The notes below the pieces were generated by a model that saw only the letters and a list, made by a program, of their open reading frames with translations, did not search any database and was not told the DNA's origin. A DNA stretch of 23,549 nucleotides from positions 1-23,549 of the IMG/VR virus record IMGVR_UViG_3300037189_012472, one strand, 5' to 3'. Below, piece after piece: positions 4,525 through 23,013 of this stretch (position 1 is the stretch's first letter; every line of letters starts with the position of its first letter). The stretch is from a virus. The translations under genes and the position numbers were made by a program.

Positions 4525-5517
4525 CTATTCAAGAACGTTCATCCCAAGGGGATTTGTGTCCTCATCATAGCCGCCCCAATTCTTGCCCACCTGAAAGTCA
4601 GAGCGCATAGTGAACTCAACCCCTTCGCGCCCGACGAGTTGTTGGGCCAGCGCCGACTGCATCAATGTTCCGGTGGCTTTGATGTCCGGATCAGGAGGGA
4701 TCGAAAGAAAGCTATCGTGTTTGTTATTACATGCTGGACGGATATGAGCAGGGCGTACACTATTAAAGCGCCGCACAGCACGATGAGTAATACAACCCAC
4801 AGTGGACTGTGGAATCCAAGAGATGGCTTCTCGGATGTAGCTGTCAGTAATCTGTCGTTCAAAGCGACGAGGGAATCCAAAAAGGTTTCGCAATATCCGA
4901 TCGCGGCGGACAGTAAATTCAATTTCATCTTGCCATTCAATAATTTCAGGGAACAGATCCGCAAAGAATTTAAGGAACAAACGGCATTCGTCGATCGACA
5001 ACACCATAGTTCCGTGCGATTGTTTGAGCGCTTGAAGCTGGAAAGTCCTCTCGCGCATACGATATGATGAGGCATGGCAAGTCATCTTGCCTACCTTGTA
5101 GGGAATGCCGCTGTTCTTAATCGCTTTATCGAGAGCTTTCCAGCCCGGTTGGGCGCGAAGATCTTCGGGCGCCAGCGATTTCCAGAACGCGGGCGATTGC
5201 CCGTCTAGCGGCCACCGATCTTTATACTGCTCGATAAAGATATGCATGGCCACGAAAGTGTGGGGTTTGATGCCCACCTCGAACAAGCGCCGATAGTTTC
5301 CGCGGCGGGTAAGATACGCCACGACAAGAGCCTCAGCGCCCGCTTGGTCGCATTGGACGAAACTGTGGCCGGCCGGAGCTATGTAGATATCAAGCGCTTC
5401 TTTGTCAGGGTTTTGGAGGTTAGCTCCGAAGCGCCCCAAGAATTGACCGCTGGCGAGCCGGAATGAACCGGTGCCAGCGACTTTGTAGGACGTAAGACAT
5501 GAGAAGTGGAGACTCAT
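4525..5517 (-). CDS. Family A DNA polymerase, C-terminal half (palm and fingers)
   Basis: This 330-aa protein begins exactly inside the polymerase domain of a Pol I-like enzyme. TSYKVAGTGSFRLASG (9-24) and GANLQNP (31-37) correspond to the TGRLSS...NLQNIP region. Motif A is FVQCDQAGAEAL, with catalytic D57. Motif B (O helix) reads YKVGKMTCHASSY, with K144 and Y152. Motif C is NNKHDS, with catalytic D268 and Ser where Pol I has Glu. A WIPQSTV element (234-240) is typical of phage enzymes. The exonuclease and thumb are in a separate gene at 6779-8206. ATG 5515-5517 overlaps the zinc-ribbon stop in an ATGA junction, so this is a true gene start, not a broken frame. The two products probably associate to make one enzyme. 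Confidence 0.88.
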   Translation of the reverse strand: MSLHFSCLTSYKVAGTGSFRLASGQFLGRFGANLQNPDKEALDIYIAPAGHSFVQCDQAGAEALVVAYLTRRGNYRRLFEVGIKPHTFVAMHIFIEQYKDRWPLDGQSPAFWKSLAPEDLRAQPGWKALDKAIKNSGIPYKVGKMTCHASSYRMRERTFQLQALKQSHGTMVLSIDECRLFLKFFADLFPEIIEWQDEIEFTVRRDRILRNLFGFPRRFERQITDSYIREAISWIPQSTVGCITHRAVRRFNSVRPAHIRPACNNKHDSFLSIPPDPDIKATGTLMQSALAQQLVGREGVEFTMRSDFQVGKNWGGYDEDTNPLGMNVLE

Positions 5518-6778: not shown

Positions 6779-8206
6779 TTAGTATTCCCAAATCCAAGAT
6801 TCGAAATTGAGCATGCCCTTTAGCTTCACCATGCGGCGCATCTCGAAGATCACATCAATCGCTACATTCTTGGGGTTTTTGATTTTGATTTTGTATAGTG
6901 CGTCTCCGGCCACCGACGGGGCGCCAGAGTTCGTAGTCTTTTCTGGGCGATAACCCATCAGACCATGAAGATATTTCACTACTTGATCGGGAGAACCTGG
7001 GTTAAGAGGCTTTCCGACAAGAATATTAAGGACTCTCTGGAGGTCTCGGTGACGAGTCTCGCAGGCGCGAATGATGGCTTGACGCTTAATCTCAGTGTAT
7101 TCGAGTCCTTGGAGGGACATGAAGCCATAGTCATAGAGCGATGACATTGCTTGCCCGACACTGTCCATAAGTCCTTGATCGAGCGCAATCGTGGCCTGTT
7201 GTCCGTAGTAGATTTCACGGAGAGCCACCACGTCTTTAACATTGTAAGCTCGAAGCTGGTCAAACTGCTGCTTATTTCGGGGATCAAAAGATCCACCTTC
7301 ATCTTTGTGAAAGGGTCTGTTGGCGTATAAGGTTTGCTGATGAGCGAGAGACTTTTCAGCTTCGGGCCAGATACGGTGGCCAGCAACCATGGTGCAGTAA
7401 ATGTCCAGTCCAAATGGCAGCCGGTAAAAAGCTGCGAGGAAGAGTAAGTCGAAGAGTGCATTGTGAATAACGATGCGGCGCCGCTTCATTTCGCGTACCA
7501 GTGCGGCAAAGAAAGCTGGACCAACTCGTAAGTTACCAGCCCAATCATAGACAGGTACAGAATAAACAGGACTATCGCCACAAGCGATGGCGAGGCAGAG
7601 AAGAGTATTAGTCTTTGGATTGCATTCAATATCAAAGAAGATAGGTCCTTCGTGAGCGAAGACATTAAGCGCATCGCGTGTGTTATCGACGTAGTACGCT
7701 TTGGGTTCCGGCGGCGATATCGGACCGGCATAAGTCAGGACCTTTCGAACGTCTTGTTGAAACCAGAAGCGATAGTTACTGCGCTTGGTGGGCGAGTTAG
7801 ATTTGCCATCGCCGTCGGTATCATCCTCATCATCGCCATCTAGGCCCGCCAATTCATCCTCGATGCCGCGGGCATCGCAGGCGTCTTGCGGCCAGTAGGT
7901 TGTGATGAATGGAACTTTGCTCTGCGATTCGTAGATGACCCCGCGGAATGCGTCAAGCGTTTTGCCTTTAGCCGCCGGGATAAATGGGAGGGCATTGGTG
8001 CCCGCAAAAATAATCTTGCTGAGTTTGGCGCCGACGGGTCTGTCGCCTTTGAAGAATGCATCGACGGTGGTCGTGAACACTTCTGTGTCGTAATCTATTC
8101 CGTGCTCGGCAAATGTCTCGCGGCACAGATCTCCGGCGGGCCCAAGGTTAATGCCTTGATTCTCGCGGTCAAATCTGTTGAGGCCATTAAGAACGAGGGC
8201 AATCAT
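6779..8206 (-). CDS. Family A DNA polymerase, N-terminal half: UDG-like + 3'-5' exonuclease + thumb
   Basis: A 475-aa protein. Residues ~15-110 resemble a shortened family 4 uracil-DNA glycosylase (IIFAGTNALPF, AFRGVIYE, FITTYWP), but the catalytic residues are not evident. An Asp-rich linker follows (~116-134). The DnaQ-like 3'-5' proofreading exonuclease has all three motifs: FFDIE (D192, E194), HNALFD (N249, D253) and YNVKD (Y321, D325). The end (EMRRMVKLKGMLNFESWIWEY) is the thumb part of Pol I, stopping just where the 330-aa protein at 4525-5517 continues. I chose ATG 8204-8206, overlapping the upstream stop (ATGA), over a TTG six codons earlier. Together the two halves make about 805 residues, a normal phage Pol I size with an extra N-terminal domain. 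Confidence 0.82.
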   Translation of the reverse strand: MIALVLNGLNRFDRENQGINLGPAGDLCRETFAEHGIDYDTEVFTTTVDAFFKGDRPVGAKLSKIIFAGTNALPFIPAAKGKTLDAFRGVIYESQSKVPFITTYWPQDACDARGIEDELAGLDGDDEDDTDGDGKSNSPTKRSNYRFWFQQDVRKVLTYAGPISPPEPKAYYVDNTRDALNVFAHEGPIFFDIECNPKTNTLLCLAIACGDSPVYSVPVYDWAGNLRVGPAFFAALVREMKRRRIVIHNALFDLLFLAAFYRLPFGLDIYCTMVAGHRIWPEAEKSLAHQQTLYANRPFHKDEGGSFDPRNKQQFDQLRAYNVKDVVALREIYYGQQATIALDQGLMDSVGQAMSSLYDYGFMSLQGLEYTEIKRQAIIRACETRHRDLQRVLNILVGKPLNPGSPDQVVKYLHGLMGYRPEKTTNSGAPSVAGDALYKIKIKNPKNVAIDVIFEMRRMVKLKGMLNFESWIWEY

Positions 8207-8412
8207 TTGGAAGGAGCCCCGCAATTAGGGCATTTGTACGGATGTCCATAGTCGTGTGTCGTTGTGCAATATGAACACTTAACCTTAAGTGATGCGCATA
8301 GCTTAGGCTGGTTGCCTATCAAATTGTCATATGCCATATTCGACATATTCATACGATCGTGATTAAATGCGCTGAGGGTAGCTTCGGCGGTTAGTCCGGG
8401 GCAATATCCCAT
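8203..8412 (-). CDS. Small zinc-ribbon protein, 69 aa
   Basis: Begins MGYCPGLTAEATLSAFNHDR and ends with CSYC (near residue 46) and CPNC (near 62) separated by THDYGHPYK, a zinc ribbon. ATG 8410-8412 has a strong Shine-Dalgarno AAGGAG 8 bases upstream, just after the DenV-like gene's stop. Its TGA overlaps the start of the polymerase N-terminal half (ATGA). Function unknown; it is the second zinc ribbon placed directly before a polymerase half, the other being at 5514-5711. Confidence 0.65.
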   Translation of the reverse strand: MGYCPGLTAEATLSAFNHDRMNMSNMAYDNLIGNQPKLCASLKVKCSYCTTTHDYGHPYKCPNCGAPSK

Positions 8413-8424
8413 ATGATTATCTCC

Positions 8425-8844
8425 TTATTTAACAGGCCAAAAGTAAAGATAGTTTGGAAGCTCCGACCAACCAAACTTGCCATAGTGAACGGGATCTTTA
8501 CGCAGTAGGTTTGATCGGTGTGTTTTGTGAACGCGTTCGTCGCCTAGCCAGAATGGAGTATGACCGCGTCTTGCTTTATAGCCTAGCACATCCATAAACT
8601 TTTGCCACGTAGTGTCTTCGTATCCGCGCGCCATCCACTCTTCGACAATGGCCTGATGATACTGTGCTAGAGGTAACTCACAACCGCGCCACATCTTTAC
8701 CGCCGGATGATGTTGCCAGCCATAATTGGGATCAATGAGGGCTTTGAGGATTTGTAAGTTCTCGACTCGCTGCTTGCCGAGCCGCCGCGTATCTAGCACC
8801 CGTGCGCACTCCTTGAAGTCGGCAAAGGGCAAAAAGGTTTGCAT
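8425..8844 (-). CDS. Pyrimidine dimer DNA glycosylase-like protein (DenV / MSMEG_6728-like)
   Basis: A 139-aa protein beginning MQTFLPFADFKECARVLDTRRLGKQRVE. The pattern (TFLPFADF near the N-terminus, LDTRRLGKQRVE, then HHPAVKMWRG, LGDERVHKTHRSNLLRKDP and a Trp-Pro C-terminus) is that of the family related to T4 endonuclease V found in actinobacteria and phages. DenV removes UV-induced cyclobutane pyrimidine dimers by glycosylase/AP-lyase action; activity of the distant family is less well shown. It follows a promoter-like sequence and heads the polymerase operon. Role: probable repair of phage DNA. Confidence 0.8.
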   Translation of the reverse strand: MQTFLPFADFKECARVLDTRRLGKQRVENLQILKALIDPNYGWQHHPAVKMWRGCELPLAQYHQAIVEEWMARGYEDTTWQKFMDVLGYKARRGHTPFWLGDERVHKTHRSNLLRKDPVHYGKFGWSELPNYLYFWPVK

Positions 8845-9114: not shown

Positions 9115-9639
9115 TTAGAAGCCATCGGCCAGCATCGAACGAACCTGATCGAAGCTAAAGTCGGGCGTGAAGCGCCGGACAATAGGCTCGCCATTCTCGT
9201 CCCGCTTGGCCTTGGCGATATCAAAGGCCGCGTTGCGCTCGGTGCTGTCGGTAACATACTCGGTCTTACAACCGACCAGCATCGAGATGCGATGATTCTC
9301 AAGCTGCTTGAGCAGGCCGACAACCTCGTCGGGACCATACTCCTGATTCTCTGGAATCTGCTGGAGCAGGCCGAGCTTCTCAAGCTGGGGCGCCACACGA
9401 TTGAGGGCATCGTCGACACCGTTCTTGTTCTTCAACATAACATACATCCGGCCCGTCGCTCCGGCGGTCTTGTATGAGCGGCCGGCGTATTCAACCACAT
9501 CCGGCCCGACGATCTCGCCGTCGATGGTCACCATGGGAAATCCCGTCGACTTGCTCTCGGTGAGCTCGACCTTGTCGATGCGCACGTTGTAGGCGTTGCG
9601 GGGAATGTAACCGATGGCGACTTCTTTTCCACGAATCAT
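9115..9639 (-). CDS. Probable single-strand DNA-binding protein (DUF669-like)
   Basis: A 174-aa protein with N-terminal EVAIGYIPRNAYNVRIDKVELTES and KSTGFPMVTIDGEIVGP, the strand pattern of an OB fold like that of phage DUF669-type and other SSB-like proteins. It would coat single-stranded DNA in replication and recombination. Immediately upstream on the minus strand is a Sak4-like recombinase, the usual partner of a phage SSB. Codon use is unlike most neighbours, with strong preference for C-ending codons (ATC, AAC, TAC, GTC), suggesting high expression. It is first in its transcript, behind a sigma54-like promoter (9710-9725) and a 5' hairpin. No acidic C-terminal tail like bacterial SSB is present; the end is VRSMLADGF. 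Confidence 0.65.
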   Translation of the reverse strand: MIRGKEVAIGYIPRNAYNVRIDKVELTESKSTGFPMVTIDGEIVGPDVVEYAGRSYKTAGATGRMYVMLKNKNGVDDALNRVAPQLEKLGLLQQIPENQEYGPDEVVGLLKQLENHRISMLVGCKTEYVTDSTERNAAFDIAKAKRDENGEPIVRRFTPDFSFDQVRSMLADGF

Positions 9640-9709: not shown

Positions 9710-9725
9710 AGCTAATGGTATGCCA
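9710..9725 (-). promoter_or_regulatory. sigma54-like (-24/-12) promoter for the SSB-like gene
   Basis: Minus strand TGGCATACCATTAGCT: GG and GC are 10 bases apart as required, TGGCA and the final T also fit the consensus TGGCAYR-N4-TTGCW, with one departure (A for T in the -13 side). It lies in the 90-base gap between the Sak4-like stop and the SSB-like start, with a predicted start site near 9699. The 19171-19186 site has the same TGGCAYA-N4-TAGCT form. Confidence 0.5.
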
Positions 9726-9729
9726 AGCT

Positions 9730-10392
9730 TTAAACATTCGGTGCAATAGTTTGCAGCGCGAGATTAACGTCGTTCACGATCACGTCGCCAAGGCCCCAGA
9801 AAGGCGGAGTCTTGGCCAGCGTGACGCCGTCAGTTTGGGTGCCTAGGAAGTATTCAATCTTGCCAGTCTCCTTAGACTTCTTGGCGAACGAAGTCCAGAC
9901 CGCAATGCATTCGGACTCGATGCCCTTGTTGGCCCATTCTTTACCTTGCACAAAAGAACGGCGCCGGATTGTCAGGCTGCCATCGAGACCCTGAATCTGC
10001 ACCACCTCTTCGAGCGAGGTAAAGATGACCGTCTTCTTCGTGGCTTTAAGCTCGTTGAATAGATCTTGAATGCCGTCGTTGTAGTTCTTCCAGATGTCGA
10101 AGCCCTTGTAAGTTTTCTCGCACCAGACTTGAAGCTGGTCGATGGCCGCGGTGATACTGTCGATGGCGATGATCTTGATGGCCGGATCTTTGGCGGCTTT
10201 ACGGATCTCGACGAGCAACTTCTCGCGTGATTCGGAGGGTACGACGAGCGCGGGATTAGTCACCTTGAAGGGCATACCTTTCCGCTCGGCGTCGATGATG
10301 CGCGTAATATCTTGCGGCAAGTTGCGGAGGGATGTGGATTTGCCGGTGCCGCTGGGGCCGACGATTCCGATAAGTGTGGCGGGATAATTCAT
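9730..10392 (-). CDS. Sak4-like P-loop ATPase (AAA_24), recombination
   Basis: A 220-aa RecA-fold ATPase. Walker A is GPSGTGKST (12-20) and Walker B is IKIIAIDS (72-79, D78). A Ser/Thr-rich region and 'VIFTSLEEVVQIQG' follow, and the protein ends without further domains, as in Sak4 proteins of phages. Sak4 supports single-strand annealing and homologous recombination together with a phage SSB, and an SSB-like gene is indeed next. I chose ATG 10390-10392, right before MNYPATLIGIVG and two bases after the previous stop; the longer frame to 10464 adds 24 Ser/Thr-rich residues overlapping the upstream gene. Confidence 0.78.
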   Translation of the reverse strand: MNYPATLIGIVGPSGTGKSTSLRNLPQDITRIIDAERKGMPFKVTNPALVVPSESREKLLVEIRKAAKDPAIKIIAIDSITAAIDQLQVWCEKTYKGFDIWKNYNDGIQDLFNELKATKKTVIFTSLEEVVQIQGLDGSLTIRRRSFVQGKEWANKGIESECIAVWTSFAKKSKETGKIEYFLGTQTDGVTLAKTPPFWGLGDVIVNDVNLALQTIAPNV

Positions 10393-10393
10393 A

Positions 10394-10744
10394 TTAGAGG
10401 GAGATGCGCTGAATGAGGTTTCTGAGGTTGTCGTTATTGTCGGAGAGTTGATTCCTCTGACCAAGCAAACACGAATGTAGGCGTGTGAGGTTTAACATAG
10501 GCATAGGCGGCCTATCTTGTTGAGGCTCTTCTGCTGTGAGAATTGGACTAAGCTCTTCTTCAAGAAGCTTAATCAGTTCAGCATAAGTTTCAATCTCTTT
10601 TTGATTCGCATCAGTGACTTCATTGAGCGGCGAGCTTTTAGTAGCGACACCTTCGGTAGTCTGATGTGGATGCATCTTTTGTGCATAAGCGTATGGCTGC
10701 GGAATACGAGGCGATGATTTGATGTTGTCGAATTCAGGTCTCAT
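10394..10744 (-). CDS. Hypothetical protein, 116 aa
   Basis: Begins MRPEFDNIKSSPRIPQPY. The first ~45 residues are Pro/Gln-rich and probably disordered; residues ~48-70 (QKEIETYAELIKLLEEELSPIL) form a helix or short coiled coil, and a second helix ends the protein. ATG is three bases beyond the nuclease stop, and the stop is one base before the Sak4-like start, so it is sandwiched in the recombination operon. No family recognised; an adaptor for the nuclease/Sak4 pair is possible by position only. Confidence 0.55.
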   Translation of the reverse strand: MRPEFDNIKSSPRIPQPYAYAQKMHPHQTTEGVATKSSPLNEVTDANQKEIETYAELIKLLEEELSPILTAEEPQQDRPPMPMLNLTRLHSCLLGQRNQLSDNNDNLRNLIQRISL

Positions 10745-10747
10745 AAT

Positions 10748-11665
10748 TTACCAAGCTAGTGGTTCATATTTAACTACTGCGGTTTCGGACAGAAAGAGAT
10801 CTACTTGATCTTTGTTTTGCGCGAAGCAAAGTTTTTTAAACGGGCACGCCGGGCACGCATTGTTAATCATGCCGGTGGGAGGCGGAAGAATATCGTCTTC
10901 AACATAACGCCGAACTTGCTCGATGAATGCGTAAAGCATTGTGGAAAAGATCTTGAAGTTCTCTTCGGTGAATCCGGTCTCGGGGCCTAAGCGCCACGTG
11001 ACGGGCTTGGCCGATAACAAGATTGCAAGCGGCCGCATCACAAGCTTACGATACCAAGCAAGATTGCCGAGATTGATGTCGTCCTTGAAGATTTCATAGG
11101 CATGACGATTCACAATCCATGGGTAGAATGTGAATTGGGTGTCGCCTTCATAGCCCGCAATAACCTCCTTGAATAGATATTTGCGTGAAGTTTTGTAGTC
11201 GGTGATGACGATGAGATTGCGCCGCTCGTCGTGCGAGAGTACGTCGATGGTACCCGCAAATACAAAGCCCGGCGCGGTGTCGATAGGGAACTCGAACTTA
11301 TACTCGGCGCCTTGACAATGAGAGAGCGCGATGGGCTTCGGAAGATCTTGCGGATTAAGTGATGATACTGCTTCCTTAATCTGTGTGGCTTCTTTGGCCG
11401 GCAGATGTTTTTCGCGTGCGGCCTTAAGCGCGTCAGTCATTGCGCGCATACTGTTTTCGGGCGAGCGATTGAATGCGAGATCTTCCGCAAACTTATGAAT
11501 GATCTTGCCCACCGTCAGGATAGGATCTTCGGTCTTGGGCTTGAGCCCCAACACCACAGTTAGAAACCAGCGGCGATGGCAGGCGGCAATCTTGAGGCCA
11601 CTGGCGTTGATTGGGATTTTATCTGGTCGCCCGTCGGCGGGCAGATCTTGTAGAGATAATGTCAT
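10748..11665 (-). CDS. PD-(D/E)XK nuclease with 4Fe-4S cysteines (Cas4/RecB-like)
   Basis: A 305-aa nuclease. In order: C29 (first cluster cysteine), GKIIH (H57), AGTIDVL (D141), ITDYKTS (D156 and K158, the D-x-K pair), DTQFTFY (the QxxxY motif, Q177 to Y181), and the C-terminal CPACPFKKLC (C271, C274, C280). This arrangement of one N-terminal and three C-terminal cysteines around a PD-(D/E)XK core defines the Cas4/AddB-type iron-sulfur nucleases. Such phage enzymes resect or cut DNA ends for recombination. No Cas1, Cas2 or CRISPR array is in the window, so a CRISPR role is unlikely. Its start overlaps the 72-aa gene stop (ATGA). Confidence 0.88.
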   Translation of the reverse strand: MTLSLQDLPADGRPDKIPINASGLKIAACHRRWFLTVVLGLKPKTEDPILTVGKIIHKFAEDLAFNRSPENSMRAMTDALKAAREKHLPAKEATQIKEAVSSLNPQDLPKPIALSHCQGAEYKFEFPIDTAPGFVFAGTIDVLSHDERRNLIVITDYKTSRKYLFKEVIAGYEGDTQFTFYPWIVNRHAYEIFKDDINLGNLAWYRKLVMRPLAILLSAKPVTWRLGPETGFTEENFKIFSTMLYAFIEQVRRYVEDDILPPPTGMINNACPACPFKKLCFAQNKDQVDLFLSETAVVKYEPLAW

Positions 11666-11880
11666 CCTAGCTTGAATGTTTGTTGTTTCTTAATGATGTC
11701 TTGAATACCCGGAATGTTTGCGAGCAGAGGATCTTTAATAAGTTCATCGAGCGATCCGCCGAGCGGCCTCGTGTGGGGAAAATGCGGCATCAGGGCCGCA
11801 ATCAATTCAGTGTCCGTCAGTTCGGAGATTGGCTTGGTGAAACCCAGCAGGTGGTCTAAGTGGTTGGTCGATTCGCTCAT
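11662..11880 (-). CDS. Small hypothetical protein, 72 aa
   Basis: Begins MSESTNHLDHLLGFTKPISELTDTELIAALMPHFP at ATG 11878-11880, with AAGAGATTAAG as a modest upstream ribosome site. Helical throughout, with an LTDTELIAALMPHF helix and IPGIQDIIKKQQTF at the end; no family recognised. It overlaps the nuclease start in an ATGA junction and, unusually, overlaps the upstream 136-aa gene by 74 bases in another frame. Coupling to the nuclease suggests a partner or accessory role. Confidence 0.55.
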   Translation of the reverse strand: MSESTNHLDHLLGFTKPISELTDTELIAALMPHFPHTRPLGGSLDELIKDPLLANIPGIQDIIKKQQTFKLG

Positions 11881-12217
11881 ATTTCTTAATCTCTTCTGAG
11901 ACCACGATGTATCGTGTAGTTTTTGGCCTACGTTGTCTTTGAGATTTTTCTATATCGGCAGAGGTGGTTGCTACTGTATAACCATCCGGAACTTTGACAT
12001 ACCATTTATGCTGTGCTTGATACCGCACAAGACAGAGCGGCGTTGATCTGATGTAGTTAGCATTATTGTGTTCCCATGAGTAAGGACCAGTCGGGTAATA
12101 AATAGCACTCTTCGAGGCACGCAGTATCTCAAGTTGTGCGTAGATTTCATCAAGTGATTCAGGATTCTTGAGCCGCCTTTTAAACGGAATCAAGTACACC
12201 ACTTTTTCTTTTTTCAT
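11807..12217 (-). CDS. Hypothetical protein, 136 aa
   Basis: I chose ATG 12215-12217 (MKKEKVVYLIPFKRRLKNPESL) because GGAGGA stands about 8 bases upstream, one of the best ribosome sites in the window; a TTG 18 bases earlier is in frame. The ATG overlaps the TGA of the 58-aa gene. The protein is basic with aromatic-rich strands (KSAIYYPTGPYSWEHNNANYI) and ends with a polar tail. No family recognised. Its last 24 codons lie over the start of the next gene in a different frame. Confidence 0.55.
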   Translation of the reverse strand: MKKEKVVYLIPFKRRLKNPESLDEIYAQLEILRASKSAIYYPTGPYSWEHNNANYIRSTPLCLVRYQAQHKWYVKVPDGYTVATTSADIEKSQRQRRPKTTRYIVVSEEIKKYERIDQPLRPPAGFHQANLRTDGH

Positions 12218-12390
12218 TTCTTCTTCCTCCTCCAACTAACCGGCCCATATCTTGACTCATCAAGTTTATAGGCTTTAGCAATTCGCACCGTATCCATCAC
12301 TTCTCCTTTGCCCGCAAGCAAATGTGCATTGTCTCCGTTGTTGCCATGTGTCTTGCGCAACAATTTATTACTGGTCTCGTCGAGCGCCAT
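12214..12390 (-). CDS. Small hypothetical protein, 58 aa
   Basis: ATG 12388-12390, TGA 12214-12216, product starting MALDETSNKLLRKTHGNNGD and ending with a basic SWRRKKK tail whose codons carry the GGAGGAGGAAGAAG ribosome site for the next gene. It lies between the lysozyme-like gene stop-side (12396) and the 136-aa gene. No family recognised. Supported by the exact ATGA junction and absence of another gene in the gap. Confidence 0.5.
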   Translation of the reverse strand: MALDETSNKLLRKTHGNNGDNAHLLAGKGEVMDTVRIAKAYKLDESRYGPVSWRRKKK

Positions 12391-12395
12391 AGTGG

Positions 12396-12842
12396 TTATT
12401 GATTATTGAGCAGAGATGTGTAGATGTTGGCGTAACGTTCGGCCCGCTCACGAACTTCGCGAGGACAGTTTGTGGTGAGATAGCCGCGACGCCTAAAGCC
12501 CGCATAGCCCATGTTCCACATACAGTAGAATTGGGCGGCACTTGCTTCGCGCCAGCCATTCGCTTCTTGATACTTATACAGCAGCCAAAGCGTATGGACC
12601 TTGGCGCACCGGGCTGCTTCGTCGGGATTAGATAGCTGGGGCTTGTGTCCCTTGAAGTGTTGCTTCCATACGGCCGTACGAATCTGATAGCGACTAAGCT
12701 CGCCAGCCGCTCCGACTTTATGATCGTTGTTGCCGCTTTCGATCTGGCTTAATGCGGCCAGCCGTGTCGATAAGTCGTGTGATAATGCGGCTCCATGGCC
12801 GGCGAGTACAAGCGCTATTGGTAGGCTCATGATTGGATTCAT
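12396..12842 (-). CDS. Lysozyme/SLT-like muramidase domain protein
   Basis: A 148-aa protein. An N-terminal hydrophobic stretch (IMSLPIALVLAGHGAAL) could be a signal peptide or signal anchor. Then LSQIESGNND (likely catalytic E35) followed by GAAGELSRYQI matches the 'E-S-G ... GAxG..Q' signature of soluble lytic transglycosylases; two later segments (YKYQEANG, AAQFYCMWNMGYAGF) fit the helical lysozyme fold. These enzymes cleave peptidoglycan between MurNAc and GlcNAc. Its place inside a replication/recombination operon is unusual, as lysis and virion muramidases normally lie in late regions. ATG overlaps the upstream stop (ATGA). Confidence 0.65.
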   Translation of the reverse strand: MNPIMSLPIALVLAGHGAALSHDLSTRLAALSQIESGNNDHKVGAAGELSRYQIRTAVWKQHFKGHKPQLSNPDEAARCAKVHTLWLLYKYQEANGWREASAAQFYCMWNMGYAGFRRRGYLTTNCPREVRERAERYANIYTSLLNNQ

Positions 12843-13036
12843 GCATTGAATATTTGACTGTTAGTTCGGAATGATCCTTCGTCACGCAGGCCACGGCGGT
12901 TCAGCCACTCGCGATACTTGCGGTCGATTTGGCGTTGAGTAGCGGCCATACTATTTTCGCCGCGCGTAATGCGCGGGTCAGGAACTCCTGCGGTAGTATG
13001 ACTACTTCCGGTGGTAACTAGTTTGCGCTTGCTCAT
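12839..13036 (-). CDS. Small basic hypothetical protein, 65 aa
   Basis: Begins MSKRKLVTTGSSHTTAGVPDPRITRG and continues with a basic helix, TQRQIDRKYREWLNRRGLR. It is coupled to the lysozyme-like gene by ATGA, and its start is six bases after the stop of the 227-aa gene. A DNA- or RNA-binding role is possible from the charge; no family recognised. Confidence 0.5.
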   Translation of the reverse strand: MSKRKLVTTGSSHTTAGVPDPRITRGENSMAATQRQIDRKYREWLNRRGLRDEGSFRTNSQIFNA

Positions 13037-13042
13037 GGTGAT

Positions 13043-13726
13043 TTATCCTTCGAGTGCCGTTAGTGCTTCGGGGCTCATGTGTAGGATTGTCAGTTGTTTA
13101 TCGCCTGCAATCCAATCGTGGATAAAATACTTATCCTGTTTGATGATTCCGATTGCCCATTCGAGGGAAGCAGGATCGACGCCGACCCAAGTTTTGTGTG
13201 TATCTTTTGCCGCGCTGGAAAAGAACTCTTGAACTTCCTCGCGAAATTGGAAGGCATCGAATCCGGTCTCGCCTTCGCGGGGCACTTCGGTTAGGCCCTC
13301 GAAGAAGTTATCGAGATTCTTATCTTCAAGTTCGCGGAGTGAGAAGGTTATTAGATTGCGGGTGCGCTTGATAACGAACAATTCTACATTGTCCCGGATG
13401 GCATTCCAATCCTCGTCGGCCATTGCATAGTTCCACTTCTCTACGACGCCGCCGTCGAGAAGCCACTGGCGACCCTGCGTGAATTGCGCGAGGACGGTGC
13501 GCGAATCATAGGGCGATCGGATGAGAGATTTTTGCAGGGTCTTAGACGGCACGGCGAGAAGCTTCTCGATCATGCGGTAGACTTGTGTGCCCCATGTCTT
13601 CTGATAGTAAGGATAACCGGGCTTGCGCGGGTTAGCTTCGAGACCGCCGCCGGGCTTGAGAATGTGGTCGGCCGCAGCCAACGCCTCACGAGCATCTAGC
13701 TTAGGTTTATGCGGTTGCAGATTCAT
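13043..13726 (-). CDS. Hypothetical protein, 227 aa
   Basis: Begins [28 protein letters not shown] and overlaps the end of the sigma54-activator gene by 20 bases. It is mixed alpha/beta, with GRQWLLDGGVVEKWNYAMADEDWNAIRDNVELFVIKRTRN in the middle and a C-terminal WVGVDPASLEWAIGII segment. No Walker, nuclease or zinc motif seen. It is tightly linked to the AAA+ activator and is a candidate partner or regulator of it, but function is unknown. Confidence 0.6.
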   Translation of the reverse strand: MNLQPHKPKLDAREALAAADHILKPGGGLEANPRKPGYPYYQKTWGTQVYRMIEKLLAVPSKTLQKSLIRSPYDSRTVLAQFTQGRQWLLDGGVVEKWNYAMADEDWNAIRDNVELFVIKRTRNLITFSLRELEDKNLDNFFEGLTEVPREGETGFDAFQFREEVQEFFSSAAKDTHKTWVGVDPASLEWAIGIIKQDKYFIHDWIAGDKQLTILHMSPEALTALEG

Positions 13727-14570
13727 AACGCGGAAGTTTTAGTTTCTGGATTTCACGGCGCAATAGGATGTTATAGAGTGCACGAACATTACCGAGCATC
13801 ACATCTTCGGGCGGAATATATTCATCGGGTTCGAGAGGGGTCCATCGCTCGTCTTTGATGATGCGATCGGCGAGGTATCGAATCTCGCCGGGGCCACGCT
13901 CTTGAAGCGAGTAGGTTTGAAGAGACAGTTGATTGATGCGGAAGTATAGATCCTCACGGAATGTGCCCGCTTGAACCATGGCGAGCAAGTTCCGATTGGT
14001 GGCGAATACAAAGCGACATCCAATGGGAATAGAGTCGACGGCCCCGACGGGCAGCACTCGCTTCTCTTGAATGACCCGCAAAAGTTTGGCTTGTTGCGAG
14101 AGTGGCAACTCGCCGATCTCGTCGAGGAATGCGACCCGCTTGCCCACGCTGCGCAAGAATCCCGGGGCGCCTTTGGCCAGCGCGCCCGTGAATGCACCCG
14201 GCGCATATCCGAATAGCTGCGACTCGAACAGGGTATCTGTCAAGCCGGCCATGTTGATTGAACTATACTTAGGGATAAACTCACTCATGTCGTCGTAGGC
14301 GACAATGCCTGCTAGCAACTCTTTGCCCGTGCCGCTTGGGCCATGAATGAGGAGATTGTAGCGGGCGAATTCTTTGTTGAGCCGAATCGCCTGCCGCACG
14401 GTCTCGCGGGTAGGTTCGTGTTGTGTAGGATAAATGTACCAAGCCCAATCATTAACCCGCCGGATACGATGCTTATCAATTTCGTAATCCTCCTCAATCT
14501 GTCGGAGGATTTGCTCTTGAAATCCCTGCCGCAATTGCGGGTGCTTTGACGGATCTATGTTGAGATTCAT
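13707..14570 (-). CDS. sigma54-dependent activator AAA+ domain protein without HTH
   Basis: A 287-aa AAA+ protein of the NtrC/PspF class. Walker A is GPSGTGKE (77-84). The diagnostic sigma54-contact loop GAFTGA is intact at 125-130 in [11 protein letters not shown]. Walker B is VAFLDE (146-151), sensor I ATN (190-192), putative arginine fingers R205 and R211 in FREDLYFRI, and sensor II GNVR (260-263). In this class ATP hydrolysis drives remodelling of closed sigma54-RNA polymerase complexes. It has only ~60 N-terminal residues before the core and ends 24 residues after GNVR, so no Fis-type DNA-binding domain and no receiver domain. ATG overlaps the helicase stop (ATGA). It could act from solution, or with another DNA-binding protein; a non-transcriptional AAA+ role cannot be ruled out. 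Confidence 0.85.
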
Positions 14571-16735
14571 TTTTCACCTTCCTCTTCGTCATCGTCGTCT
14601 TCTTCTACTTCGATAATGCCCGTCGATTCCGAGCCCTTCAATTCATCTTCCGTAAGTTTGCGGCCGGCTTCCCGCTTGCGCACCGCACGTTCGAGTTCCG
14701 AGGCGAGGTCAATGTTAGATGAGCCGATGGCATCAATGGATTTAAGCTTCGAGGCCAGCTTCGGGGCCATATGATCCGAGAGCAACGTGTGCATAGGAAT
14801 GTAGATTTCTTGCACAGTGTCGGTGATAGTGCTGACTCGAACGCATCGGCCAAGCGCTTGCGCAAACTCTTCGGCCCAGTATGTCATGGTGGACATAACC
14901 CAGCGGGGCCGACAATGCACATAGCGATGATCGAGTGAGATGCCAGTGCCGCCGCTCGATAGGGTATAGACACAGAACTCTGTGCCGCCCTCGATGAATG
15001 CCTTGACATTTTCGTGGCGCTCTTCCTGAGATTGATTGTGGAGCTTAAGCTCTCGCAACTTGATGTTGCGTTGAGCGAATGCATCCTTGGTCATCTCGCG
15101 GAACAGCCGCTCGCTGGTGTACTTCACGCCCTTGTTGAAAGCGCGGAGTTCGGCCGGATCAATACCCAACTCGTCAGCGGTGGGTCGCCGCGTGGCGTCG
15201 GGGTTGTCGAGAATCCACTTGCCAATCATGCCGCCCACCTCGCTGGCGCGTTGGGTAGGAAGGAGATCTTCCTCGCGGATTTCTTTTTGTCCACCCCAAA
15301 TCAAACTGATCTTGCTGCGGGTATAGCCGAGCGACTTGAAGTATGCAGACTCCGAGAGCTTGAGCACATACTCCTTCAAGGTCTCGGTGAAACGAATAGC
15401 TAGCACAGGTGCATAGCCTTGCTTGTGAAGCTCGATAGCGTCGGCTACCCATTGATCTACTGTGGCAAGTTCGGCCGCCCGTGCCATCACCATGAAGGCC
15501 ACCATGACTTGGCCTTGCGGATCTACGCTGCGCCCGGTGGCCTCAAGCGCCTTGGTGTAATTGGACATGGCATTAACGACCATGCTCCAATTCGTGGGGT
15601 CAGTGATCTCAAAGAGCTTGACGCGATTAAGCGCCTTAACTTTCTGCGGATCATTGGGCGGCCGAATAAAGCGGTCGCCGATGGCCGCACTCCAACGCTC
15701 CAATGCCGCGCTATTGGGCTTGGTTAGCGGGATCTTACTACCTTCGTTGAGGGCGCGTGCGAACTCGGGGAACAACTCGCGATTGACGACACGGCCGCCA
15801 TACTCAATCTTCATGGCGAGTGTCATGAACATTGTGTCTTGAAGGGTTACTGCGGGCGTGGCCGAAGTGAACACCCACTTGATGCCGGGAATGTCGATGA
15901 AGGATGCGAGATACTTTGTGCGCTTAGCTTTCTCCTTCTTGAGTTCTTGGCACTCGTCGACAATGATTGCTCGCGGGGCGCATTCGTTGGGCAATCCGAA
16001 GCGGATGATGTTAGACTTCTGCCCGAATACCTCGACGGTATCCTTGCGGAAGAATGCCGCGTTCTTCTTGGACATGAGTTCGTTATAGCTCATGACATCG
16101 ACGGCCATTCCTATGTCCTTCAAGCCGAGCCGCTTGCAGGTGTCGCGAAACTCCAGCACCACGCTGCGCTTGGTGATGATAAGGATGGGCGGAAAGATAG
16201 CCATGAAGTTCATGAACTCCGAGGGCTTGTGTTTCTGGAGCCACAATGCGAGACCGGCCGCAATCCAACTCTTGCCCTTACCGGTGCCCAGTGGCACAAG
16301 TGCACCATCAAGATTCTGGTTGAACAGAACATCGAGCAGGGCGGCAATAGCCTTCTTTTGCTGAGGCTTAAATTCCATTCCGCCGGGCAGCGGAATGTCG
16401 ATGGTGGAATAAGTGCGTCGTTCGCGAGCGTCTCGCTCTTCGGCAATGCGCACTTGTTCTTTGCGGGCTCGATCGGGCGCGTTGCGAATCCAGTATTCGA
16501 CAACCTGCGACAAGATTTCGAGGTTGATGGCGCGGGCACGAGCGGCCTCAGGAATCTCGATGCCTAGTTCTCGTTGGACGTGTTCCCACGTGGAGACTGT
16601 GCCATACTTGAAGGCATTGAGAAGTTTGGTGCCGGCCGCTCGGGCGCTTGTGAGCGCGGTGGCCTCAAGCTTCTCGGCCGGCGATAGTTCGCGCCGGGCC
16701 TTCGGCGCCACGGGTGCAATAGATGATAGGTTCAT
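14567..16735 (-). CDS. SF2 DNA helicase
   Basis: A 722-aa superfamily 2 helicase. Motif I is LGTGKGKSW (149-157), motif II is VDECQ (259-263, a DECQ variant of DEAH), motif III SATP (291-294), motif V SSGGTGISL (593-601) and motif VI QALGRCVR (626-633, with arginine finger). About 120 residues precede the core (charged helices, RNAPDRARKEQVRIAEERDARE) and a very acidic tail ([14 protein letters not shown]) ends the protein. The domain layout resembles SNF2/RAD-type phage helicases such as T4 UvsW or branch-migration enzymes. It likely unwinds or remodels recombination and replication intermediates. ATG overlaps the upstream stop (ATGA), and its own TGA overlaps the activator gene start. Confidence 0.88.
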   Translation of the reverse strand: MNLSSIAPVAPKARRELSPAEKLEATALTSARAAGTKLLNAFKYGTVSTWEHVQRELGIEIPEAARARAINLEILSQVVEYWIRNAPDRARKEQVRIAEERDARERRTYSTIDIPLPGGMEFKPQQKKAIAALLDVLFNQNLDGALVPLGTGKGKSWIAAGLALWLQKHKPSEFMNFMAIFPPILIITKRSVVLEFRDTCKRLGLKDIGMAVDVMSYNELMSKKNAAFFRKDTVEVFGQKSNIIRFGLPNECAPRAIIVDECQELKKEKAKRTKYLASFIDIPGIKWVFTSATPAVTLQDTMFMTLAMKIEYGGRVVNRELFPEFARALNEGSKIPLTKPNSAALERWSAAIGDRFIRPPNDPQKVKALNRVKLFEITDPTNWSMVVNAMSNYTKALEATGRSVDPQGQVMVAFMVMARAAELATVDQWVADAIELHKQGYAPVLAIRFTETLKEYVLKLSESAYFKSLGYTRSKISLIWGGQKEIREEDLLPTQRASEVGGMIGKWILDNPDATRRPTADELGIDPAELRAFNKGVKYTSERLFREMTKDAFAQRNIKLRELKLHNQSQEERHENVKAFIEGGTEFCVYTLSSGGTGISLDHRYVHCRPRWVMSTMTYWAEEFAQALGRCVRVSTITDTVQEIYIPMHTLLSDHMAPKLASKLKSIDAIGSSNIDLASELERAVRKREAGRKLTEDELKGSESTGIIEVEEDDDDEEEGEK

Positions 16736-17040
16736 TCGGCGGGTGCAACAATGTCTAGGATTTCTTGGACGCTCTTGAATCCGTAGGCGCTGGGTGTCAA
16801 TGTAAGTTGACGCACGTAGGTGTCAAGGGCGAGCGATTCAGGAAGCGGTTGCTTGCTGAGATTTTCGAGGTGTCGTTGGAGGATGGAGTTCTGCTTGAGG
16901 ATAGGTTCGAGCTTGCGAGTGTTTGCGGCCAGCTTATCTTCGACGGTCATGCGGAGTTTGACCCGGCGGCTGATGGCTTGGTTGCGTGCCTTAACCATTT
17001 TGCGGAGGCGAAGTGTAGACTGCTTGAGCGTTGGATTCAT
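16732..17040 (-). CDS. Hypothetical basic helical protein, 102 aa
   Basis: From ATG 17038-17040 (MNPTLKQSTLRLRKMVKARNQAISRRVKLRM) to TGA 16732-16734, which overlaps the helicase ATG. The N-terminal half is strongly basic, and the rest is helical with heptad-like LEPILKQNSILQRHLENL. Another start, ATG 16996-16998, would reduce overlap with the upstream gene from 50 to 8 bases; neither has a clear ribosome site. No family recognised. Coupling suggests a helicase partner or loader, by position only. Confidence 0.55.
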   Translation of the reverse strand: MNPTLKQSTLRLRKMVKARNQAISRRVKLRMTVEDKLAANTRKLEPILKQNSILQRHLENLSKQPLPESLALDTYVRQLTLTPSAYGFKSVQEILDIVAPAE

Positions 17041-17599
17041 AGATGTTACGGTGGTCGATTTCTTTGATGATTTGTTCGATGGGAAAATAGATGATGATGT
17101 TGGTGGCATGATCGGCAGCGAAGGCGCCGCGAAGAGTGTCGATTAGATGTTGGGATTTTTCGCGGTATGTTTCCTCGCCGCGGGATGTAATAGATTTGGC
17201 AAGCGCTTCGGCTTTGTCGCGCGGAAAGATTGCAGAGCGCACAAGTTCGTGTGCGATGCGGTGAATGCGGAGTTCATGGGCGCGAGCGATAAGGTGACTG
17301 ACGTCGCGCTGGAGGAACTCTTCGCGCAGGGTGCGGCGGCGCTCGACGGAGTGTTCCCACTCGGTCTTCTCCCAGAGGACGCAGTAATGAAGGCCGTCCT
17401 CGTTGATTGTTTGGAGGAAGAACAGATCGGTGGTAATGATGGGGCGCAATAGCTCTGCGGTTTCGAGGGATATTACGCGGGCTATTGCGAGGTTGTTGCC
17501 GTAGGTGCGGCGGATAAAGTGCGACTTGAAGTCGTCGAGTGTAACGTCGCAGCTTGGAAAGAGCAGACTATAAAGTATCGAAGGTGTAATGGTGGACAT
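16991..17599 (-). CDS. Hypothetical protein, 202 aa
   Basis: I chose ATG 17597-17599 (MSTITPSILYSLLFPSCDVTLDDFKSHF); the frame runs open a further 124 codons upstream but over a GC-rich hairpin and the 110-aa gene, with low-complexity sequence, so the longer version is not credible. The protein is mostly helical and basic, with EKTEWEHSVERRRTLREEFLQRDVSHLI and IARAHELRIHRIAHELV; near the end NIIIYFPIEQIIKEID. No family recognised. No Shine-Dalgarno is visible; it may be read from a long structured leader. Confidence 0.55.
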   Translation of the reverse strand: MSTITPSILYSLLFPSCDVTLDDFKSHFIRRTYGNNLAIARVISLETAELLRPIITTDLFFLQTINEDGLHYCVLWEKTEWEHSVERRRTLREEFLQRDVSHLIARAHELRIHRIAHELVRSAIFPRDKAEALAKSITSRGEETYREKSQHLIDTLRGAFAADHATNIIIYFPIEQIIKEIDHRNIYESNAQAVYTSPPQNG

Positions 17600-17638
17600 T
17601 GTGAAGAGGATACAATGGTGCGTAGATACTTGGGTTCT

Positions 17639-17657
17639 GCCGCCGGGGTCCGGCGGC
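17639..17657. other. GC-rich perfect hairpin between two minus-strand genes
   Basis: GCCGCCGG (17639-17646) pairs with CCGGCGGC (17650-17657), loop of three, within the 82-base gap between the 110-aa stop (17682) and the 202-aa start (17599). No T-run follows on either strand, so it is more likely an mRNA-stabilising or processing structure than a terminator. Confidence 0.5.
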
Positions 17658-17681
17658 GGGTACGCCAAGGGCCCGCAAAAA

Positions 17682-18014
17682 TTAGGCGATCGAAGGCTCG
17701 ACGAGAGACTTGCCGATTTGCTGATCGGTATCGTTGGCGAATTGCACGAAGCGTTCAAGATCCTTTGCGAATCCATTGATCGTGCGCACCTTAGCATCGG
17801 CTTCGGCGCGAGATGCCATGCCAATGATAGCGCCCACGCGAAGATCGGGGCGCTTAATACGGAATCCGTTGATGGCCGCGATAGGACTACGGGCATCGGC
17901 GGCTTGCGGGATGTTGTTACTATCCATGAATACAACAACCCAATGTTTATACATGCCACCAGTGATGACATTGGTTTGATGTTGCATATTAACTACGTCT
18001 TGAACAGTTTTCAT
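17682..18014 (-). CDS. Hypothetical protein, 110 aa
   Basis: Begins MKTVQDVVNMQHQTNVITGGMYKHWVVVFMDSNNIPQAADARSP and has a beta-strand then helix pattern (GFRIKRPDLRVGAIIGMASRAEADAKVRTINGFAKDLERF). First gene of the long operon that holds the helicase and activator. Its leader from the predicted start near 18112 is about 98 bases and includes a CGGGCC/GGCCCG hairpin (18074-18079 with 18085-18090). No family recognised. Confidence 0.55.
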   Translation of the reverse strand: MKTVQDVVNMQHQTNVITGGMYKHWVVVFMDSNNIPQAADARSPIAAINGFRIKRPDLRVGAIIGMASRAEADAKVRTINGFAKDLERFVQFANDTDQQIGKSLVEPSIA

Positions 18015-18122
18015 TTTGCAGAATGTTCAGAGGTTGTTGTTAGATTCGATGGGCACACCTACCAGCGTACCCGCGGGCCGACCCGGCCCGTGAATCCAAC
18101 GACCGATGAACACCAACCTAGC

Positions 18123-18138
18123 CGCATAACTTGTGCCA
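18123..18138 (-). promoter_or_regulatory. sigma54-like (-24/-12) promoter for the helicase/activator operon
   Basis: Minus strand TGGCACAAGTTATGCG: a full TGGCAC at -24, GC exactly 10 bases after GG, A for T before TGC. It follows directly after a strong terminator and before the 110-aa gene, with nothing else in the 190-base gap 18015-18204 apart from the terminator and a small leader hairpin. Predicted start near 18112. Confidence 0.5.
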
Positions 18139-18140
18139 CT

Positions 18141-18183
18141 AAAAAACAAAGGACCCTGTCAGCGCCGCAGCCAACAGGGTCCT
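18141..18183 (-). terminator. Strong rho-independent terminator after the 215-aa gene
   Basis: On the minus strand AGGACCCTGT (from 18183 down to 18174) pairs with ACAGGGTCCT (18159 down to 18150), 14-base loop, followed by TTGTTTTTT. It ends the tRNA/215-aa transcript just before the sigma54-like site at 18123-18138. Confidence 0.9.
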
Positions 18184-18204
18184 CTTTATGCCGGACTACT
18201 TAAC

Positions 18205-18852
18205 TTACTTCTTGACGTCGCCCTTCTTGGCCTCGCGCTTGGCCTTGGTTTCGGTGATCTCCCGCAGCTTCGCCGTGAAGCTGATGACCGACGACACCAA
18301 GTTATCGCGGCGGGCCACAGCGGCCTCGCGATCGGGAACCCCGAGCGACTTGGCCACGTCGTCCGACCACTCGCCTTCGAGGGCCATGTACAACTGACCG
18401 AGATCCGCCCGCAGATTCCGCAGCTTGTCCGTGACAGACTTCTCAGTCTCGCGATCCTTGCTCACGCCGTAGATGAAGCTACCGAAATACTCGGCAACCT
18501 GTCCCTTCGTGAGATATGCCTCGTGCGCATCCTCGCTGCGGTCCGCGATGAACTCCGAGACTTCGTCGGCCAGCAGCGTGGACTGCCGCTTGACTTCGGT
18601 CTCCGTGCCATCCGGCGCCTTGACCTTGTCAGTGTGCTCGGTGACAACCTGCGACTTGGCGGTCGCAAGCGCCGTGGCGAACGCGAGCGCATCGACCTTC
18701 AAGACGGGCGACTTGAAGGTGACCGTGCGGGCCGCCGACTTTGCGGTCTTGCGCACCTCGCGGATGCTGTCGGCGAACACAGGATTCTTGGCTTCGTCGG
18801 CAGCAAACACGGCACCGGCGAACGAGGTGATAACTTCGATGTTGTGATTCAT
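18205..18852 (-). CDS. Hypothetical protein, 215 aa, codon bias of high expression
   Basis: Begins MNHNIEVITSFAGAVFAADEAKNPVFADSIREVRKTAKSA and ends with a basic tail (KLREITETKAKREAKKGDVKK). Helical, Ala/Lys/Glu-rich, with no motif recognised. Codons are strongly C-ending (ATC, ACC, GCC, TTC, GTC) compared with nearby genes, like the SSB-like gene. It is a single-gene unit bounded by the tRNA-Gln gene upstream and a strong terminator downstream. An abundant DNA-binding or structural protein would fit, but this is inference. No good Shine-Dalgarno precedes the ATG at 18850-18852. Confidence 0.65.
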   Translation of the reverse strand: MNHNIEVITSFAGAVFAADEAKNPVFADSIREVRKTAKSAARTVTFKSPVLKVDALAFATALATAKSQVVTEHTDKVKAPDGTETEVKRQSTLLADEVSEFIADRSEDAHEAYLTKGQVAEYFGSFIYGVSKDRETEKSVTDKLRNLRADLGQLYMALEGEWSDDVAKSLGVPDREAAVARRDNLVSSVISFTAKLREITETKAKREAKKGDVKK

Positions 18853-18877
18853 AATGATTGTGACTACTAACTAACTT

Positions 18878-18930
18878 GATTGAACTTAAGTTGCTCTAGC
18901 TTGAGGGCTTGAGTTTCGCAGCGTTCAATC
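18878..18930 (-). other. Inverted repeat in leader of the 215-aa gene
   Basis: GATTGAAC (18878-18885) pairs with GTTCAATC (18923-18930), within the 95 bases between tRNA-Gln and the 215-aa start. Inside are a 10-bp palindrome AACTTAAGTT (18883-18892) that competes with the outer stem and a CTTGAG direct repeat. It may control translation or RNA processing after the tRNA. Confidence 0.4.
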
Positions 18931-18947
18931 GGGAGCTGCTGAAAATT

Positions 18948-19023
18948 TGGAGGATCCGGCGGGACTTGAACCCGCAATGACCAGAGTCAAAGTCTGGTGT
19001 GTCTACCATTCCACCACGGATCT
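18948..19023 (-). tRNA. tRNA-Gln (anticodon UUG) with encoded CCA
   Basis: Cloverleaf seen on the minus strand: acceptor AGATCCG with CGGATCC, a D arm with GG in the loop, anticodon stem CCAGA/TCTGG with loop CTTTGAC (anticodon TTG at positions 34-36), TCATT variable loop, T arm GCGGG-TTCAAGT-CCCGC, discriminator T and encoded CCA. It reads CAA codons. The first acceptor pair is A1-C72 by my alignment, a mismatch; bacterial tRNA-Gln normally has a weak U1-A72. Phage tRNAs commonly serve codons rarer in the host. Confidence 0.9.
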
Positions 19024-19028
19024 GTTAC

Positions 19029-19110
19029 CTGTCCGCCAACACACTGACGTCGTTGTGCTTCATGTATTGTGCGCAATCGAGAGACGACAAAAATCAATTG
19101 CTGCGGACAG
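19029..19110 (-). other. 82-base tRNA-sized structured element before tRNA-Gln
   Basis: CTGTCCGC (19029-19036) pairs perfectly with GCGGACAG (19103-19110), closing 66 bases that contain a further GCAAT/ATTGC pairing. It ends five bases from the 5' end of the tRNA. Size and closed ends resemble a tRNA, but there is no T loop and no clear anticodon arm. Together with two hairpins at 19118-19154 it fills the leader between the sigma54-like site and tRNA-Gln. It might be a decayed tRNA, a small RNA or a processing signal. Confidence 0.4.
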
Positions 19111-19170
19111 AAAAGTTGGTGCCGGTTACGCATCCGGCGACACGCTTCGGTGTCCGACTATCCACTAGAT

Positions 19171-19186
19171 AGCTACGGCTGTGCCA
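19171..19186 (-). promoter_or_regulatory. sigma54-like (-24/-12) promoter for the tRNA/215-aa unit
   Basis: Minus strand TGGCACAGCCGTAGCT: TGGCAC, GC after 10 bases, and a final T, one departure from TGGCACR-N4-TTGCW. It sits right after the stop of the 130-aa gene (19188) and upstream of the structured leader, tRNA-Gln and 215-aa gene. Predicted start near 19160, followed by a hairpin (19139-19143 with 19150-19154). Same TGGCAYA-N4-TAGCT form as the 9710-9725 site. Confidence 0.5.
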
Positions 19187-22785: not shown

Positions 22786-23013
22786 TTAAGCCCAATCAAT
22801 CCGCGAAAGTTTGGTACGATTCGCCGGCACACCATGCGGCATACGCTTGCAAACCCAAGCCCGTCCCTTATTCAAAGACCGATGATCGTGCTTTGCCGCA
22901 CGCTTACTGGTTGCATTTGTGGTTGGTGCACGCCGAAGAGCTTGGGCCGTGCCGAGATTATAGACGTTTCTGGGAGTCTTGTCCCACGCGGCGATTGGAT
23001 TAGATCGTGCCAT
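22786..23013 (-). CDS. Small basic hypothetical protein, 75 aa
   Basis: Begins MARSNPIAAWDKTPRNVYNLGTAQ; Arg/Lys/His/Thr-rich with no predicted domain. First gene of the accessory block; its ATG lies close downstream of a promoter-like sequence (23030-23056), suggesting a very short leader. The ribosome site is weak. Confidence 0.5.
   Translation of the reverse strand: MARSNPIAAWDKTPRNVYNLGTAQALRRAPTTNATSKRAAKHDHRSLNKGRAWVCKRMPHGVPANRTKLSRIDWA

Follow-up and report, generated by a model that had tools for sequence, protein, structure and literature searches.

Sigma54-type promoter candidates at the operon heads of a phage that encodes a minimal AAA+ activator

Can a phage place its own operons under sigma54, the sigma factor that needs an ATP-driven activator? 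The question is raised by three short sites in a viral DNA of 23,549 nucleotides (IMG/VR record IMGVR_UViG_3300037189_012472, the whole of which is called the window here), together with a gene for a sigma54 activator in the same DNA.

The three sites and the genes behind them

The sites had been annotated as -24/-12 promoters, and direct reading of the minus strand bears out the coordinates and the GG-N10-GC spacing of all three. Site 1 (9710-9725, minus strand; TGGCATACCATTAGCT, read 9725-9710) has a predicted start at about 9699, site 2 (18123-18138, minus strand; TGGCACAAGTTATGCG, read 18138-18123) at about 18112 and site 3 (19171-19186, minus strand; TGGCACAGCCGTAGCT, read 19186-19171) at about 19160. 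The common form TGGCAYA-N4-TAGCT given for sites 1 and 3 was found as described; site 2 ends in ATGCG. At -14 to -12, site 2 has the canonical TGC, and sites 1 and 3 have AGC, like most sites of the family.

The gene map agrees with the initial annotation that all three sites are intergenic and point toward minus-strand genes, and that these genes are the ones named for each site. Site 1 is the predicted promoter of an SSB-like gene (9115-9639, minus strand; DUF669 and phage SSB families), which is the first gene behind it and is more clearly recognised in its homolog in the relative G001. Site 2 would serve a minus-strand block made of a 110-aa gene (17682-18014) without relatives, a 202-aa gene (16991-17599), a helicase gene (ResIII/Helicase_C, 14567-16735) that is conserved in 28 viral loci, and the activator gene. 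Directly upstream of site 2 lies an intrinsic terminator (18148-18185, minus strand) with a 16-bp stem and a T-rich tail; a strong terminator between the site 3 unit and site 2 or its equivalent was found in the window, in G001 and in eight loci of a related lineage, B. The predicted target of site 3 is a single-gene unit coding for a 215-aa protein of unassigned function (18205-18852, minus strand), whose leader contains a tRNA-Gln (TTG; 18948-19023, minus strand). The protein forms a conserved family by alignment. Its predicted fold (pLDDT 80) gave no significant match in the PDB, and the tRNA-Gln was absent from the relatives scanned.

A position-specific matrix derived from 29 intergenic sigma54 sites of Salmonella (PMC3844500, Table 3), and hence independent of the window, was scored over all window positions on both strands. 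Site 2 ranked first, site 1 second and site 3 fourth. Their scores (13.9, 12.8 and 10.7) are lower than that of every Salmonella reference site (15.1-21.3). A matrix trained on lineage B alone put site 1 at the top of the window and site 3 in third place; site 2, with its differing last bases, was outside the top eight. Three copies in one window had been considered notable. Four positions score at least as high as the lowest of the three sites, while 200 dinucleotide shuffles give 2.3, so that the count is not beyond chance. The window by itself therefore proves nothing on significance, and an argument from the window alone was rejected.

Several other features were observed. A family A DNA polymerase is split in two genes (4525-5517 and 6779-8224, minus strand) with a ligase gene between them, an arrangement also present in G001, G024, G021 and G025. 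A gene for a pyrimidine-dimer DNA glycosylase (8425-8844, minus strand; Pyr_excise, 5e-24) is conserved in the relatives. Matches to sigma70-type early promoters were no more numerous than in shuffles; a TTGACA upstream of the helicase gene was rejected, since it sits in coding sequence, and a sigma70-like candidate early promoter, GGGACA-N17-TATAAT (22957-22985, minus strand), near the small right-end genes belongs to a class no more frequent than in shuffles. In G001 (39980-40660) and G024 (40781-41945) a long AT-rich intergenic stretch runs from the early genes to the terminase operon, where early promoters or an origin might lie.

The activator and the source of sigma54

The activator gene (13707-14570, minus strand) lies, as was initially annotated, in the operon headed by site 2. 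It codes for 287 aa that match PF00158 (Sigma54_activat, 6e-45), with GAFTGA, Walker A and B, sensor I, FRED, the arginine-finger region and sensor II present, and its closest solved structures in the PDB are activators of the NifA, NtrC and PspF types. A Pfam scan found neither an N-terminal sensor family nor a C-terminal HTH family; about 70 residues beyond the AAA+ match hold sensor II. A C-terminal HTH is also absent in some natural members of the bEBP group. Since no HTH was found, the protein is filed as an AAA+-core sigma54 activator and not as a full enhancer-binding protein. Exactly one activator was present in each of 10 contigs examined. The engineered AAA+-only protein DctD250 is constitutive, promiscuous and independent of enhancers (PMC3844500), and by analogy we infer that the window activator may be likewise. 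Truncated constitutive activators such as DctD250 (PMC3844500) resemble the phage protein in having the AAA+ domain alone and in the expected enhancer-free action from solution, but DctD250 was engineered whereas the minimal activator of the phage is natural and conserved.

The regulon had been called self-contained, and for the window phage this could not be upheld, as no sigma54 gene is present in the window or in G001 (49.8 kb), its nearest relative. Sigma54_DBD was not found in either, and the sigma54 protein of lineage C, used as a query, gave no match in them. Both known positions of the sigma54 gene lie inside the window, itself a fragment, and neither holds sigma54. The phage would thus have to borrow the sigma54 of its host. 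In 18 of 25 related records the activator operon begins with a sigma54 gene, which directly follows a promoter of the site 2 type; apart from the window and G001, the remaining records end near the activator, short of the place of the sigma54 gene. That place is occupied in the window by the 110-aa gene, which is unrelated to sigma54. In G001 the equivalent of site 2 directly precedes the homolog of the 202-aa gene, which in lineage B is directly 3' of sigma54.

The sigma54 of lineage B is full-length (about 430 aa), has AID, CBD and DBD with the RpoN box kept, and aligns over its length with the sigma54 of solved holoenzyme structures. Lineage C is represented by G025 (52 kb), which is syntenic and whose proteins are mostly 27-52% identical. 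It has a diverged sigma54 of 488 aa between Sak4 and SSB, again with AID, core-binding domain and DNA-binding domain with RpoN box. For lineages B and C, where both sigma54 and activator are encoded, the term self-contained does hold. When 2.9 million viral contigs were scanned with patterns from a broad sigma54 alignment, a search bounded by the peptide patterns used, only these lineages were found. Two palindromes, TGCCAA-N3-TTGGCA, about 22 bp apart, were observed upstream of the lineage-B sigma54 gene (L008, L012, L014 and L021); in L012 the pair lies at about 4950-5007, and the right half of the second palindrome is the -24 element. Autoregulation of the sigma54 gene through this pair is possible.

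The best five of the at least 556 bacterial sigma54 matches listed with a broader alignment belong to Verrucomicrobiota, and the top bacterial rpoN match is surrounded by chromosomal genes. Patterns specific for the phage sigma54 found nothing in bacterial genomes. Trees place the phage sigma54s with Verrucomicrobiota (SH-aLRT 99) on long phage branches, and a single phage clade was not rejected (AU 0.57). Because of this placement, and because the large terminase is closest to those of Akkermansia phages (31%), a verrucomicrobial host is likely. Matches to the activator and sigma54 in INPHARED were rejected as isolated phage relatives; none reaches 60% identity, and the records inspected proved to be either bacterial contigs or clones that are unannotated and unverified.

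Recurrence of the sites in related phages

When the same intergenic regions were compared in relatives, all three sites were found to recur at orthologous operon heads. An equivalent of site 1 precedes the SSB gene in G001, and in lineage B its equivalents are TGGCCC variants ending AAAGCTCCCTCCCATT. Equivalents of sites 2 and 3 are present in G001 and in lineage B, and in the latter that of site 2 precedes the sigma54 gene. Further copies in the relatives lie upstream of a small gene, behind which come the large terminase and a probable portal gene, and about 155 nt upstream of a 433-aa gene. By gene order and position the latter is probably the major capsid protein; identification by predicted structure failed (pLDDT 27). 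In lineage C the sites precede SSB, the gene at the 215-aa position (the positional equivalent of site 3) and the capsid candidate, the last site falling inside a gene call on the opposite strand. The sites look like genuine sigma54-type promoters heading phage operons, and the regulon would also cover virion genes in the relatives, which goes beyond the initial annotation.

Whether the main targets are the phage's own genes deserves some discussion. The promoters could be real and the activator could serve mainly to seize the sigma54 regulon or the polymerase of the host, while host activators could also serve the phage promoters. An AAA+-only activator that is promiscuous could, by analogy, open host sigma54 promoters (PMC3844500), and neither the window nor G001 has its own sigma54. 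We consider this unlikely, as promoters conserved across the three lineages stand before operons of the phage itself, and B and C carry their own sigma54, both of which point to phage genes as the main targets.

In most family sites -14 is A rather than T, so that the -12 element reads AGC and not the canonical TGC. The preference exists both in lineages that have a sigma54 gene and in those that have none, and possession of a phage sigma54 is therefore no simple explanation for it. Besides the usual AGCT class, lineage B has sites of a second class, in which the -12 element is the canonical TTGCT (TTGGCAT-N6-TTGCTT); these were observed at G021 7240-7255, G019 39946-39961, L006 19-34 and L019 406-421.

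A search of IMG/VR for the activator gave 33 loci. TTGGCAY-Nk-GCW was counted in these loci together with the window: the sigma54 spacing, k=7, gave 46 occurrences and other spacings 0-8, except for 28 at k=15, a secondary peak that we read as the same promoters present in near-identical copies. TGGCAYN7GCW matched 67 times in 24 records, and the reversed pattern 6 times. A spacing control was made on six longer contigs and the window, together 339 kb, of which 10.6% is intergenic. In the sense direction of intergenic DNA, TGGCAY-Nk-GCW had 25 matches at k=7, whereas 13 other spacings gave 0-3 each and k=15 gave 7; with k=15 set aside, the mean at other spacings is 1.0. Even the bare GG-Nk-GC peaks at k=10 in intergenic sense DNA of these seven contigs (113 against 55-74). 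The formal Poisson value for the k=7 excess, 2e-26, is too strong because the contigs are related; the recurrence at operon heads in three diverged lineages is independent of this number. Three Akkermansia phages without the activator had no peak at k=7. In the relatives the motif is thus present far beyond chance.

A conserved TTGGCAY..GCT could also be a phage operator, or another site bound by a repressor or replication protein, that merely looks like a sigma54 promoter. The non-canonical -12 part would fit this, and so would the palindrome pair at the lineage-B sigma54 promoter, which overlaps the -24 element as an operator would. The motif, however, is asymmetric, specific for direction and fixed at the sigma54 spacing, it stands upstream of operons right behind terminators, the palindromes were not seen at other promoters, and the genomes that have it encode a sigma54 activator and mostly sigma54 too, all of which makes an operator quite improbable. 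Chance matches in a GC-balanced genome with no regulon, which the shuffle count of the window alone would allow, are practically eliminated by the orthologous placement and the control for spacing, as recurrence in relatives is specific for spacing, direction and position, and the probability left to them is negligible.

Proposed working of the regulon and its meaning

We regard it as highly probable that all three sites belong to a regulon that extends over the phage genome and are promoters dependent on sigma54, opened by the stripped-down AAA+ activator of the phage. Most likely the phage diverts the sigma54 polymerase of the host, or in relatives uses its own sigma54, by means of this promiscuous activator. 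After infection, sigma54-RNA polymerase would bind the sites as closed complexes unable to open the DNA alone, and the activator, having neither sensor nor DNA-binding domain, would work from solution and open all of them. The SSB/polymerase block, the helicase/activator block and the 215-aa gene would be switched on, and, judging from the relatives, also the blocks for terminase/portal and capsid. With its gene behind site 2, the activator would amplify its own expression; in lineage B, with sigma54 and activator both behind such a promoter, expression of both would be self-amplifying. Sigma54 would be supplied by the host for the window phage and G001, a dependence that we assume, and by the phage itself in lineages B and C. 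The first activator molecules could possibly come from read-through of terminators, from host activators or from undetected early promoters. The sequences show the sites with their spacing and conservation, the activator motifs and the sigma54 genes of relatives; from these we infer the transcription starts, the dependence on sigma54, activation without enhancers, the use of host sigma54 and the timing.

Bacterial sigma54 (RpoN) regulons of the NtrC/PspF type have the same GG-N10-GC promoter and GAFTGA AAA+ activator, and the sigma54 of the relatives has the AID, CBD, DBD and RpoN box of bacterial RpoN. The phage system differs from them in being encoded by a phage, in an activator without sensor or HTH, in one activator for all promoters, and in sites that mostly have A at -14 and head replication and virion operons. 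Factors of the T4 gp55/gp33 type and those of group 2 jumbo phages (PMC7824862) likewise redirect the host core polymerase to viral promoters. They are, however, sigma70-type or gp33-like, the jumbo-phage sigma factors being RpoD-like or minimal HTH forms accompanied by gp33-like factors (PMC7824862), whereas sigma54 forms an unrelated family and depends on an ATP-driven activator. In Bdellovibrio phage phi1422, too, one gene carries the annotation of a sigma54-type regulator and is discussed as a bacterial regulator that was co-opted (PMC3391216); this is annotation only, with no promoters or sigma factor described, and no record with the name of this organism was found among the INPHARED matches to the window activator. 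No virus-encoded sigma54/RpoN was found published in the open-access papers searched, and none was found in PHROGs v4 or, apart from apparent bacterial contamination, in INPHARED. A viral scheme of sigma54 control, with promoters and activator and in some cases its own sigma54, was not found described for any virus in the open-access literature.

It is possible, and we suggest it tentatively, that the family runs an autonomous viral programme with a sigma54 encoded by the virus, an activator that naturally works without enhancers, and matching promoters in which the -12 element is shifted from the canonical TGC to AGC; the window phage would have kept activator and promoters while relying on host sigma54. 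If this is true, ATP-driven opening turns on the replication and virion genes, and the programme could be orthogonal to the regulon of the host. The phage family would use the ATP-dependent class of bacterial initiation with an activator, and in most members also a sigma factor, encoded by the virus. Such a system would offer naturally minimal sigma54 parts, a test of the co-evolution of sigma54 with the -12 element, and a regulatory marker by which to recognise uncultured phages, probably those of Verrucomicrobiota.
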